Source of the DNA: Bacillaceae bacterium IKA-2
GTDB taxonomy: Bacteria > Bacillota > Bacilli > Bacillales > Anaerobacillaceae
Assembly: GCA_031761875.1 (NCBI GenBank)
Contig: CP134492.1
Location: forward strand, 2,232,001 to 2,296,000
DNA: 64,000 nt
Direction of reading: 5' to 3'
Below the pieces are notes generated by a model. It searched no databases, was not told the DNA's origin, and saw only the letters and a list, made by a program, of their open reading frames with translations. Shown here in pieces: positions 46,200 to 50,620 of the stretch; within the stretch, counting starts at the first letter, position 1; every line of letters starts with the position of its first letter. The position numbers and the translations under genes are program-made.

Positions 46200-46400
46200 T
46201 CAATCCAATAGATAATAGGAATTTACATTCAGTGTCATACATTCGGTGCCTGGTGTATGAAATAATAAATGTCGAAAGATCTTTTAAAGAGGAGAAAGGA
46301 GAAAAAAGGACAAAAAAAGACCCCAGCGACTACATGTAGTAAGATAAAACTACCTGACGGGAAGCCTCATCACAAACTACAAAATTGGAGCGTGAGTCAC

Positions 46401-47801
46401 ATGGGGCAAAAACATAAATCTAAGTCTAATAATATTAGAGGAAGAAAAGGAAGTCAATTCCGATCTGAGCTAAGAGGTACAGATCTGGAGCGAGTATTAA
46501 TTGTAGCCATTGATGCAGCGAAGTTTTATCAGAAAGCGATGGTGTGTAATTATTTTGGTGATGTACTAGTGAAACCTACATTTTTTGGTGTTAATAAAAA
46601 AGGTATTAGCCAACTTCACGAAAAGATCGAGCATGCAAGCAAGGAAGTTGACGCAGAGCGGATTTTTGTTGGTATTGAGGCAACGGGGCATTACTATGAG
46701 GATATTGTGAGGGAATTAGCAGCTTTAGGATACGGTGTAACGATTATCAATGCGGCAACGACACACGAAGAAAGATCAAGTTCGTTGAACTGGACTAAGA
46801 CCGATGACCTCGATCTCAAGGCTATTGCCCAAGTCATTATTCAAAATAAAGGGACGGAGAGTAAGTTGCCGACGGGAACTCATCAAGAGTTAATAACGTT
46901 AACGAGAGCACGTAGGAGTGAAGTTAGAAAGAGATCCAGAGTCAAGGTAGAGATCCGGACGTTAATGGACAAAATTTGGAGAGAGTTCCAAGGGCACGTT
47001 ATAGTAAATGGTCATACGCCAAATAAAGTAGAATTATTTAGTGATTTTTGGGGCAAGTCCTCCCTCTTTTTTATGGAAAACTTCCCGCACCCAGAAGATC
47101 TTCTATCAATGAGTGAAGAAGATCTTCGAAACCTATCGATTGAACATAATTTGAAGTTACGAGATTTAACCATCAAGAACCTGTTATATATCGCTAAGGA
47201 AAGCCTATGCAGGCCTAAAAGAGACGTTCGAGCTGAGCTACTATTACTAAAGCTAGCCTTACCAAACTTTCGAAATCTGAATGCCAATATAAAGGTGTTA
47301 GATCGAGAAATTGAGCGTATTTTATTAGAAACAGATGGGCGTCTCCTTCTCAGTATTCCAGGAATTGGAGTGACAACGGCAGCGGAATTCTACTGTGAGG
47401 TAGGCGATGTACTGGCCTTTGAGCATGCAGGGCAAATTATCAAAAAAGCAGGAACCAATCCAATTGTCATTCAATCAGGGGGTCTAGAAGGGTTCTATGG
47501 GAAAATATCGAAACAAGGAAATAAGAATTTACGCTATGTCGTCTATAATATTGGAAAGAGCTTAGCACAGCACAATAAAGATGTACGTCCGTATTACGAG
47601 AACCTCAGAGCGAAAGGCAAACATCAAAGAAAAGCGTATATTGCCTTAGGGAATAAGTTCATTCGAATAGCATTTGCGATGCTTACGAATCGAACCGTGT
47701 ATCAGACAAATGATGAGTCTTACCAGTATTTACGAATGATGAAAGCAAAGTTACGACATACAAAAATGTCGGAGTTTTCTCGGATCATTAGTGCAGCATA
47801 G
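46401..47801 (+). CDS. IS110-family transposase
   Basis: This protein has 466 residues from ATG 46401 (GGAG 10 nt upstream). The frame is open to ATG 46269, which lacks a ribosome binding site. The N-terminal DEDD RuvC-like domain has VAIDAAKFYQKAMV and VGIEATGHYYED. The C-terminal Transposase_20 domain has LLSIPGIGVTTAAEFYCEVGD and the Ser-containing IVIQSGGLEGFYGKISKQGNK. The frame is intact, so it may be active. Family members recombine a circular intermediate with a target site chosen by an element-encoded RNA. Confidence 0.92.
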   Translation: MGQKHKSKSNNIRGRKGSQFRSELRGTDLERVLIVAIDAAKFYQKAMVCNYFGDVLVKPTFFGVNKKGISQLHEKIEHASKEVDAERIFVGIEATGHYYEDIVRELAALGYGVTIINAATTHEERSSSLNWTKTDDLDLKAIAQVIIQNKGTESKLPTGTHQELITLTRARRSEVRKRSRVKVEIRTLMDKIWREFQGHVIVNGHTPNKVELFSDFWGKSSLFFMENFPHPEDLLSMSEEDLRNLSIEHNLKLRDLTIKNLLYIAKESLCRPKRDVRAELLLLKLALPNFRNLNANIKVLDREIERILLETDGRLLLSIPGIGVTTAAEFYCEVGDVLAFEHAGQIIKKAGTNPIVIQSGGLEGFYGKISKQGNKNLRYVVYNIGKSLAQHNKDVRPYYENLRAKGKHQRKAYIALGNKFIRIAFAMLTNRTVYQTNDESYQYLRMMKAKLRHTKMSEFSRIISAA

Positions 47802-48120
47802 TGAAATAACAGTAAAAATATGAGTCTCCTCCTCTGGGACTGAGGGAAAATCGATTCGGTGCCGGAGGCTGTAGACCTCGAGTGTCAGCATGATTTACCT
47901 CGTCCTACAAATACGAATTGTACGTTAAGATAAAATCCTGAACTAACCAGGTTGTATCCCTGTAGTATGAAAAACGAGGTTAAGGTTCATTTCAAGTTCG
48001 AGAGGAGAAAGGCTCAATAATAAGCTTCCTGTCAGTCGATTATTGGAATTATTTGTATATTATTACATGAGTTTATTAAGTTTGCTCATTTTATTGAAAA
48101 AACTAATTGACATAGTACGC
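47802..48120 (+). ncRNA. Candidate bridge/seek RNA of the IS element (3' non-coding end)
   Basis: In IS1111-group elements the guide RNA is encoded downstream of the transposase. This 320-bp stretch has no ORF and can form hairpins. Examples are ACCTCGT (47896-47902) with ACGAGGT (about 47974-47980), and TACAA/TTGTA (about 47907-47923) inside it. The assignment is by position and structure only. Confidence 0.45.
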
Positions 48121-48132
48121 TGACACTGAATG

Positions 48133-48264: not shown

Positions 48265-49332
48265 ATGACCATGAATAATTCAAATAAAATTTCCCAACTA
48301 AAGAAAGATGTTGCCCTATATGAAAAAATTGATACTAAAGCAAGTGTCATTCAAATTATAAACACTTTATTACCATTATTTTTGTTATGGTATGGAGCTT
48401 TTTTAAGCCTTTCTGTTTCGTATTGGCTAACGCTTCCAATTATAATAGTGACTGCTGGATTTGTGGTCAGAACATTTATTTTATTTCATGACTGCTGTCA
48501 TCAATCGTTTTTTAAAAGCCGTACCGCAAATGATATCTTAGGAACAATTACAGGTATTTTGACACTTGTTCCATATCAACAATGGAAAAACACTCATAAT
48601 ATTCACCATGCATCAAGTGGGAATCTTGATAAAAGAGGCATCGGCGATATGTGGCTTCTAACGGTAGAAGAATATAAATCTTCTCCGCTATTGCGACGTA
48701 TCTATTACCGCATCTATCGGCATCCACTCGTGATGCTTGGCGTTGGTCCAATTGCTGTGTTTCTCATGGAATACCGCTTTAATCGCAAAGGTGCTAAACG
48801 AAAAGAACGGCTAAATACCTATCTTACAAACGGATCTATCGTGGCATTGTATACGCTACTTGGATTGATGATTGGCTGGAAAGCCCTTTTGCTCATTCAA
48901 GGTCCAATTTTATTCATTGCAAGTTTATTAGGAATTTGGTTATTCTACGTTCAACATCAGTTCGAGGACGCTTATTTCGAGAATGAATCTGAATGGAGCT
49001 ATATTCAAGCTGCAGTTGAAGGAAGTTCTTATTACAAGTTGCCAAGGGTGTTACAATGGATCACTGGTAATATCGGTTTCCACCATGTTCATCATTTAAG
49101 TCCACGAGTACCAAACTATAACTTAGAAAAGGTCCACAATGCGACGGTCGACTTACAAAAAGCTACAACAATAAATATCCGTACAAGCTTTAAGTCGCTT
49201 CAATATCGACTTTGGGACGAGAAAAATAAGAAGCTAATTAGTTTTAAACAATTGAAGCAGTACAATAGTACGTTTGATGTGATGGAAGAACTTATCGCTG
49301 ATAAAGTTAAAAAAGAAACGTACAATTTGTAA
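48265..49332 (+). CDS. des: Membrane acyl-lipid desaturase (Des, delta-5 type)
   Basis: This 355-residue membrane enzyme introduces a double bond into phospholipid acyl chains on cooling. The three His boxes are HDCCHQ (about residue 76), HNIHHASSGNLDKRG (about 111) and HHVHHLSP (about 275). Four or more membrane helices are present. Length and sequence follow B. subtilis Des closely. AAAGG lies 7 nt before ATG 48265; ATG 48271 is an alternative. It is followed by desK and desR in the same order as in B. subtilis. Confidence 0.95.
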   Translation: MTMNNSNKISQLKKDVALYEKIDTKASVIQIINTLLPLFLLWYGAFLSLSVSYWLTLPIIIVTAGFVVRTFILFHDCCHQSFFKSRTANDILGTITGILTLVPYQQWKNTHNIHHASSGNLDKRGIGDMWLLTVEEYKSSPLLRRIYYRIYRHPLVMLGVGPIAVFLMEYRFNRKGAKRKERLNTYLTNGSIVALYTLLGLMIGWKALLLIQGPILFIASLLGIWLFYVQHQFEDAYFENESEWSYIQAAVEGSSYYKLPRVLQWITGNIGFHHVHHLSPRVPNYNLEKVHNATVDLQKATTINIRTSFKSLQYRLWDEKNKKLISFKQLKQYNSTFDVMEELIADKVKKETYNL

Positions 49333-49483
49333 AAGAATAGATTTAGAAAAAATAGGTTGGTTGGTGGATAACACTAATTTACCTATTTTTTTGATCTGAA
49401 ATGGAAAGAAAAAGGCTAAATTTAATGAATTTCATAATATATGATAAAATAAAGGATATAAATTCAAAAAGAAGGGGCTATTC

Positions 49484-50620
49484 ATGAAAAATTTAAGAGA
49501 GAAAATCCGTAAAAATACCGGACTTAGTCCATATGTTTGGATCGTTTTTTACATTCTGCCCTTTTATTTTATTTTTGAATCATCATCAACTGCACAAATT
49601 GTTTTCGGGATTATCATGATTATCGGATATTTAATCTGTTACGTACTATCCTTTGCTTCTAAGGGCTGGCTTGTCTATTTTTGGACAAGTATTCAAATTG
49701 CCATTGCTACTGCGATGAGTCTCTTATTTGGCTATATTTATTTTTTTCTATTTTTAGCATTTTTTATTGGTAATCTCAAAAATAAAATTACATTTTTTAT
49801 CTTATATTCGGTTCTACTAGTCAGTACATTTTCAACTATTTACTATGGCTTTGTAACCATTCACAATAGTGTCCTGATTACTCAATTACCATTTGTTGTC
49901 CTTAGTGTAATTGCGGTTATTCTTCTTCCAGTTAGCACTTATAATAAAAATAAAGAAGATAAGCTACAAGGTCAGTTAGAAGATGCAAATAAACGGATTT
50001 CTGAGTTGGTTAAATTAGAAGAACGACAAAGAATATCAAGAGATTTGCATGATACGCTTGGTCAAAAGCTTTCTTTAATTGGTTTGAAGAGTGATTTGGC
50101 AGGCAAGTTAATTGTTAAAGACCCAAGTCAAGCTCGTCTAGAATTAGTTGATGTTCAGAAAACAGCTAGGCTCGCGTTGAAGGAAGTGCGGCAAATGGTT
50201 ACCAAGATGCGCGGAACGAAGCTAGAGGACGAAATATATCGAGTCGAACAAATTTTAAAAGCTGCACATATTAAATTTAGATTAGAAGGAAGTCCAAAAC
50301 TAAAAAATATCTCGTTGATTGCTGAAAATGTCGTGAGTATGTGTATTAAAGAAGCTGTCACAAACATTGTCAGGCATAGCAGTGCGACTAACTGTTCGAT
50401 AAAAATTGAACAAACTAGTACAGAGCTGATAGTAGATGTCGTCGACAATGGAACTGGGATTAATTTTGAAAATTATTTACAAGGTAATGGGCTTCAAGGA
50501 ATGAAAGAACGGTTAGAATTCGTTAATGGAAGTTTAGAAATTGTCTCGGATTCAGGAACAACGCTCATTATTAAATTACCAAATGCTTATAAACAAGCAG
50601 AACAGGAGGTCGGACTATGA
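49484..50620 (+). CDS. desK: Thermosensor histidine kinase DesK
   Basis: This 378-residue kinase has about five transmembrane helices in residues 15-152, a linker coiled coil, and the HisKA_3 motif RISRDLHDTLGQKLS with phosphoacceptor His189 (His188 in B. subtilis). The HATPase domain has N-box CIKEAVTNIVRHS and VDVVDNGTGINFENYLQGNGLQGMKERL. It senses membrane order and controls DesR. AAGAAGGGG lies before the ATG. Its stop overlaps the desR start (ATGA). Confidence 0.94.
   Translation: MKNLREKIRKNTGLSPYVWIVFYILPFYFIFESSSTAQIVFGIIMIIGYLICYVLSFASKGWLVYFWTSIQIAIATAMSLLFGYIYFFLFLAFFIGNLKNKITFFILYSVLLVSTFSTIYYGFVTIHNSVLITQLPFVVLSVIAVILLPVSTYNKNKEDKLQGQLEDANKRISELVKLEERQRISRDLHDTLGQKLSLIGLKSDLAGKLIVKDPSQARLELVDVQKTARLALKEVRQMVTKMRGTKLEDEIYRVEQILKAAHIKFRLEGSPKLKNISLIAENVVSMCIKEAVTNIVRHSSATNCSIKIEQTSTELIVDVVDNGTGINFENYLQGNGLQGMKERLEFVNGSLEIVSDSGTTLIIKLPNAYKQAEQEVGL

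Follow-up and report, generated by a model that had tools for sequence, protein, structure and literature searches.

An IS110-family insertion sequence of Bacillaceae bacterium IKA-2 very probably steered into a REP-like palindrome by a bridge RNA from its own tail

The 64,000-nucleotide stretch of the Bacillaceae bacterium IKA-2 genome analysed here (contig CP134492.1, positions 2,232,001 to 2,296,000; hereafter referred to as the window) carries an insertion sequence with a transposase that, judging from the sequence, is very probably directed to a single type of palindromic repeat by an RNA encoded in the tail of the element itself. The guiding sequences are directly readable and match the insertion sites of the window element and of about 30 related elements. 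The original prediction that the region 47802-48120 encodes a bridge (seek) RNA is strongly supported, since the guides match the joined flanks and the fold is conserved in relatives. In all likelihood, the element belongs to the IS110 family and moves by recombination guided by a bridge RNA (Table 1), and it is clearly a further example, with mixed features, of a kind of RNA-guided insertion that is already known.

Table 1. Positions of the element, its RNA and the adjoining target sequences in the window
Feature	Position	Strand	Description
Complete insertion sequence	46250..48119	+	1870 bp; starts with core CT 46250-46251; four copies diverge exactly at both ends
Second core CT	48120-48121		Directly after the insertion sequence
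Left half of target palindrome, host DNA	46240..46249	+	CATTC-GGTGC; GGTGC or GGTGT here in the four copies
Second core CT and right half of target palindrome, host DNA	48120..48132	+	GACACTGAATG; GACAC(C/T) in the four copies
Left 12-mer of the original prediction	46226..46237	+	Additional repeat half-arm within the flank; not present in the other three copies
Transposase	46401..47801	+	466 aa; DEDD = D38 E93 D135 D138; S359 in GT-P----SG
-35 box TTGACA	48107..48112	+	Right end; promoter only upon joining of the ends, 18-bp spacer to 46261
-10 box AATAAT	46261..46266	+	Left end; conserved in close relatives
Structured leader	46321..46406	+	46321-46331 (CCCCAGCGACT) pairs with 46395-46406 (AGTCAC-ATGGGG); start codon covered
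Bridge (seek) RNA core	47840..47982	+	Covariance model R1, 133.5 bits
Probable full RNA span	47826..48007	+	Closing helix CTCCTC 47826-47831 / GAGGAG 48002-48007; deduced ends
Left target guide	47854..47863	+	ATTCGGTGCC; identical to left flank 46241-46250, 10 contiguous nt
Right target guide	47881..47888	+	AGTGTCAG; reverse complement of right flank 48120-48127, 8 contiguous nt
Left donor guide	47920..47924	+	GTACG; identical to element right end 48115-48119; matches in 29/29 elements
Right donor guide	47946..47950	+	ACCAG; reverse complement of element left end 46250-46254 (CTGGT)

The genome of the window consists of one 4.42-Mb contig with four full copies of the element. Aligned in one orientation, these have 1870 bp (46250-48119) in common while their flanks diverge on both sides, and the three other copies, which are 99% identical to the window element, fix its ends. 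The span originally proposed, 46226-48132, was thus too wide by 24 bp and 13 bp, respectively. Likewise, the exactly complementary 12-mers 46226-46237 and 48121-48132, which had been taken for 12-bp subterminal inverted repeats, are located outside the ends, are missing in the other three copies and represent arms of the target palindrome, the right 12-mer being its right arm and the left one an additional half-arm just upstream. As a feature of the element this repeat is ruled out by the four-copy alignment, in which both 12-mers are flank. As expected for the IS110 superfamily, all copies occupy the same type of site in the same orientation around a CT core, with CT at the start and another CT directly after the end, and without a long target duplication. 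Between the window copy and the other three there are 19-20 differences, the majority of which fall within the last 140 bp; among themselves, the other three differ at no more than one position, and from this near-identity the movement of the element looks recent. The differences accumulated in the window copy might indicate a dead relic in which the features are real and the copy no longer moves, but this appears unlikely given that the ORF, the catalytic residues, the guides, the core and the promoter boxes are all intact. A 59-bp remnant of a left end (90%; L005, G000:C1:4096009-4096067) resides between REP-like GGTGCCTGTCCC sequences. A fatty acid desaturase gene begins about 145 bp downstream of the window element and is followed by that of a DesK-like kinase (48265-50620); the insertion may separate the desaturase gene from the promoter region it originally had.

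In each of the four copies, the insertion point is the CT within a REP-like palindrome, GGTGY[CT]GACAC(C/T). The joined flanks read GGTGC-CT-GACACT in the window copy (in full, CATTCAGTGTCA-TA-CATTCGGTGC-CT-GACACTGAATG) and GGTGT-CT-GACACC, GGTGC-CT-GACACC and GGTGC-CT-GACACC in the other three. The motif GGTGYCTGACACY occurs about 95 times in the window genome (it was counted twice, first with a slightly different pattern) as opposed to 0 occurrences of a reversed-pattern control, and the palindrome is interspersed in the genome, often in pairs with 50-140 bp between them. The location of the four copies, together with the approximately 95 motif copies, indicates that the element inserts into this REP-like repeat at the CT core. 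The target of the window element reads GGTGCCTGACACC / GGTGYCTGACACC; the Evansella clarkii version is GGTGCCTGTCACC. In the same genome, a gene for a RAYT-like Y1 transposase of 194 aa (L156 1266-2172, contig ~4072232) is flanked by the target repeat of the element, with two copies on each side, and other Y1 genes of this genome and of relatives (L153, L155, L164, L166, L169, L170, L178) adjoin sibling versions of the repeat. The REPs may be spread by such RAYT-like Y1 genes.

The transposase had been recognised as an intact member of the IS110 family, and matches to Pfam (DEDD_Tnp_IS110, 4e-20; Transposase_20, 4e-21) and NCBIfam ('IS110 family RNA-guided transposase', 2.4e-55) agree with this. 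Its closest PDB entries, both by sequence and by predicted fold, are IS621 and ISCro4, the complexes of which are matched by the predicted structure (pLDDT 82; Foldseek 1.6e-12). In an alignment of 25 sequences, D38, E93, D135 and D138 of the RuvC-like DEDD domain, which together with Transposase_20 characterises the IS110 superfamily, are invariant, and the motif GTNP----SG, which as in the IS110 group has no L after the G, is invariant or nearly so. The ORF finder placed the start at 46269, yielding 510 aa. Since this position overlaps the probable junction promoter region and the alignment with relatives sets in only near 46401, with GGAG 10 nt before the ATG, translation probably starts at 46401 and results in a protein of 466 aa.

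The non-coding 3' side, originally described as about 320 bp of structured sequence, comprises 318 conserved bp, and the evidence for its structure is comparative. Folded alone, the RNA is weakly more stable than shuffled sequences (z -1.54). In an alignment of 31 sequences (A5), 96.5-96.6% of cells were paired in the structures tested, and two-sided changes numbered 72-76 versus 22-23 after shuffling (72 versus 21.9 for one structure); the covariation signal was lost when the partner was shifted by 1 to 3 columns. Such compensatory changes bear out the expectation that the fold is conserved in related elements. The segment 47896-47900 (TACCT, alignment columns 65-69) pairs with 47843-47847 in the 5' strand of the target arm and also, with comparable covariation, with 47977-47981 in the 3' strand of the donor arm. 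These two helices are mutually exclusive, and the double pairing may represent a conformational switch or a consequence of repeated sequence. A common scaffold is present downstream of the gene in all relatives with an intact 3' side and consists of a variable stretch, a hairpin GAGG...CCTC, another variable stretch with AGC at its end and, finally, an arm with (G/A)(T/A)ACG and a (C/T)AG motif. The probable full span of the RNA was taken from the fold of the window RNA together with similar pairing in the sequences of relatives. In the window genome, the covariance model identified exactly four RNAs, one for each of the four transposase genes, and no orphan guide RNAs; searched against Rfam, neither the window nor the RNA region matched any family. 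Another IS110-family element of this genome (L027, L029, L032, L035; 429 aa, identity about 25%) is represented by five matches, one of them with an internal stop, and to this element the RNA covariance model gave no match. Among distant IS110 loci, the model gave only one weak match (18 bits, E 0.044), upstream of an IS110 transposase gene in Pisciglobus halotolerans (L081 2317-2462); this scaffold could be identical but placed at the opposite end of the element, and we do not rely on it.

As described for bridge and seekRNAs, the target guides are complementary to both strands of the target and the donor guides to the joined ends of the element. In IS1111-type elements, the seekRNA follows tnp and its first target segment is the one that pairs with the top strand; their subterminal repeats usually measure 11-13 bp, and their motif is GL-P----S(T)G. 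In the IS110 type, the RNA is mainly upstream and the target segments are in reverse order (PMC11187229). Of the original classification as IS1111-like, the position of the RNA holds: 47840-47982 is downstream of tnp, as in the IS1111 group, and not upstream as is usual for the IS110 group, for which exceptions exist (PMC11187229). The other features point in the opposite direction. The segment pairing with the bottom strand (47854-47863) precedes its counterpart (47881-47888), which is the IS110 order according to PMC11187229, the serine motif is GT-P----SG in place of GL-P----S(T)G, and the alignment with the transposase of IS4321, the one compared for the IS1111 branch, is confined to the C-terminal third. 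The 12-mers belong to the flank, and the longest end repeat has 6 bp with one mismatch, whereas the same procedure returned 12 bp of perfect repeat for the IS4321 control. Thus, even though several relatives have imperfect subterminal repeats of about 10 bp in a fixed register, a standard IS1111-group element, with its long subterminal repeats and with the seekRNA segments in the IS1111 order, is rather improbable, and we file the element as IS110-family with a bridge RNA and not under IS1111. In PMC11187229, IS110-type elements with a downstream non-coding region are reported (the 'green group'), the guides of which are not decoded there; the window element probably is one of these.

Relatives were obtained from one scan of genome contigs and a search of 397 genomes of the order, 13 of which, including the own genome, have a close relative. 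This yielded 35 distinct elements in 53 distinct insertions, with 42-79% identity of the relatives' transposases, in Evansella, Anoxybacillus, Neobacillus, Cytobacillus, Siminovitchia, Paenibacillus, Sporosarcina, Filibacter and other hosts. A search for plasmid relatives found none, and phage matches were all less than 60% identical, mostly 23-34%. For the target guides, the five bases next to the core were scored against the element's own flank, with flanks permuted among elements as control. The right target guide matches at 86% (54% permuted, z 8.9) and the left one at 85% (58% permuted, z 8.6); the left donor guide matches at 100% (88% permuted) and the right donor guide, with wobble, at 99% (91% permuted). 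All four guides hence co-vary with their DNA partners across the 35 elements (permutation z 6.4-8.9, 0/10,000 for each guide), in figures from which relatedness among the elements is not removed. As the elements are related by ancestry, guide switches between close relatives are the stronger evidence. Among element pairs with a transposase alignment score >0.70, 70 of 84 guide differences, which are not independent of each other, follow the target. The nearest relative, from Evansella clarkii (L047, 79%), has guide GTGAC and flank GTCAC, compared to GTGTC and GACAC in the window. Similarly, GTACG, ATACG or AAACG in the RNA recurs with the same letters at the right end of the respective element in 29 of 29 cases, and the right donor guides ACCAG, GCCAG, ACTAG and AATAG pair with the left ends CTGGT, CTGGC, CTAGT and CTATT (G-U included). 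The anticipated match between loops and joined flanks was therefore found in the window copy and across elements. A poor match of right guide and right flank (1-2/5) occurs in elements of Paenibacillus (L051, L052, L053, L057) and Cytobacillus (L055), for which we have no explanation. Since guides and target switch together between close relatives, an asymmetric target (GGTAC-CT-GTCCC, L098) is matched by its own guides and the donor guides co-vary with the element ends, it is very hard to credit that the transposase alone recognises a folded REP hairpin and that the 3' region plays no guiding part and is simply an untranslated tail, even with a palindrome as target and REP targeting known before guide RNAs (PMC1525189).

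Judged by motif counts, the guide follows the host's own version of the REP. Genomes with GTGAC guides mostly carry the repeat GGTGYCTGTCACY, which outnumbers the GACAC version by 26 to 1 in Evansella clarkii, 85 to 3 in Neobacillus niacini, 51 to 0 in G243 and 59 to 0 in G023. Genomes with GTGTC guides carry GGTGYCTGACACY (95 versus 1 of the other version in the window genome; 57 versus 11 in G004). One genome (G268), in which one of the elements has the guides GGAAC/GGGAC, contains 24 copies of GGWACCTGTCCCY and 0 of the other two versions; another (G002) is mixed (16 versus 12). In Filibacter tadaridae (L068 ~83-97), the left flank consists of TTGACATAGTACG and the core CT, corresponding to the right end of an IS, as would be seen in a tandem copy or after insertion beside the end of another element.

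Joining of the element ends would create the predicted circle junction ...ATAGTACG-CT-GGTGTATG... and a probable promoter, TTGACA-18 bp-AATAAT, the equivalent of which in Paenibacillus relatives such as L051 is TTGACA-18-TATAAT. In the leader, the T and G of the start codon are always paired when each sequence is folded separately (30/30 elements, median z -3.95), and several pair types occur per position of the helix in a pair table across elements. The arms differ by clade (CCCCAGCGACT/AGTCACATGGGG here, CCACCGTTTTCAT/ATGAAAACGATGG elsewhere), and because their lengths differ as well, an RNAalifold consensus of the leader alignment contained no pairs; the leader structure was accordingly taken from the separate folds. 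A leader of similar kind lowers translation in ISPpu9 (PMC8450116), and by analogy the helix over the start codon probably keeps translation of the transposase low.

The ends, the core, the target, the four co-varying guides and the RNA scaffold are evident from the aligned sequences; for transcription, RNA binding, catalysis and circle formation we infer the steps from experiments on IS621 and ISEc21/ISEc11 (PMC11208160, PMC11187229). Accordingly worded as a model, the excised circle would join the element ends and thereby form the promoter, from which transcription would proceed through the transposase gene into the RNA of the right end. The first loop of the RNA (guides GGTGCC and GTGTCAG) would pair with both strands of the palindrome GGTGY-CT-GACAC, the bases at issue for insertion at GGTGYCTGACACC being 47858-47862 and 47882-47888, and the second loop (guides GTACG and ACCAG) with the joined ends ATAGTACG-CT-GGTG. 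The DEDD/serine transposase would exchange strands at the CT core common to target and donor, so that the element would land in REP copies in one orientation, leaving a CT at each end.

The element thus offers a fully readable guide RNA, with four segments for donor and target, in a Gram-positive group, and its retargeted relatives form a natural series of examples that are ready-made for programming. The mixture of features is relevant to the divergence of IS110 and IS1111, and the match between guide and host REP version makes the tracking of repeat families by such elements directly testable. As a more tentative idea, possible if somewhat doubtful, it might be speculated that these elements form a distinct IS110 subtype, mainly of Bacillales here, with an RNA at the right end in IS110 guide order, a two-state RNA, a self-masking start codon and guides that repeatedly evolve after the host REP version spread by RAYT-like transposases.

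Among known systems, IS621 and ISCro4 (PMC11208160; PDB 8wt6-8wt9, 9t56) have in common with the window element the DEDD and serine transposase, the CT core and a two-loop RNA with left-then-right target guides and donor guides, and IS621 also targets REPs; here, in contrast, the RNA is downstream of the gene and has no Rfam model, and the transposase has 466 aa versus about 330-340. ISEc21 of the IS110 group, which uses a seekRNA, has the same order of the two target-matching segments, but its non-coding region is upstream and its target is a conserved site within the transposase genes of the IS3 family (PMC11187229). Conversely, ISPa11, ISEc11 and ISKpn4 of the IS1111 group share the guide RNA downstream of the gene, and ISPa11 targets REPs, whereas the order of the target segments is opposite and the subterminal repeats are usually 11-13 bp (PMC11187229). 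ISPpu9 of Pseudomonas putida (PMC8450116) resembles the window element in its long leader hiding the translation start, in a small RNA downstream of tnp and in its insertion into REPs; an antisense RNA, Asr9, is additionally known of ISPpu9.
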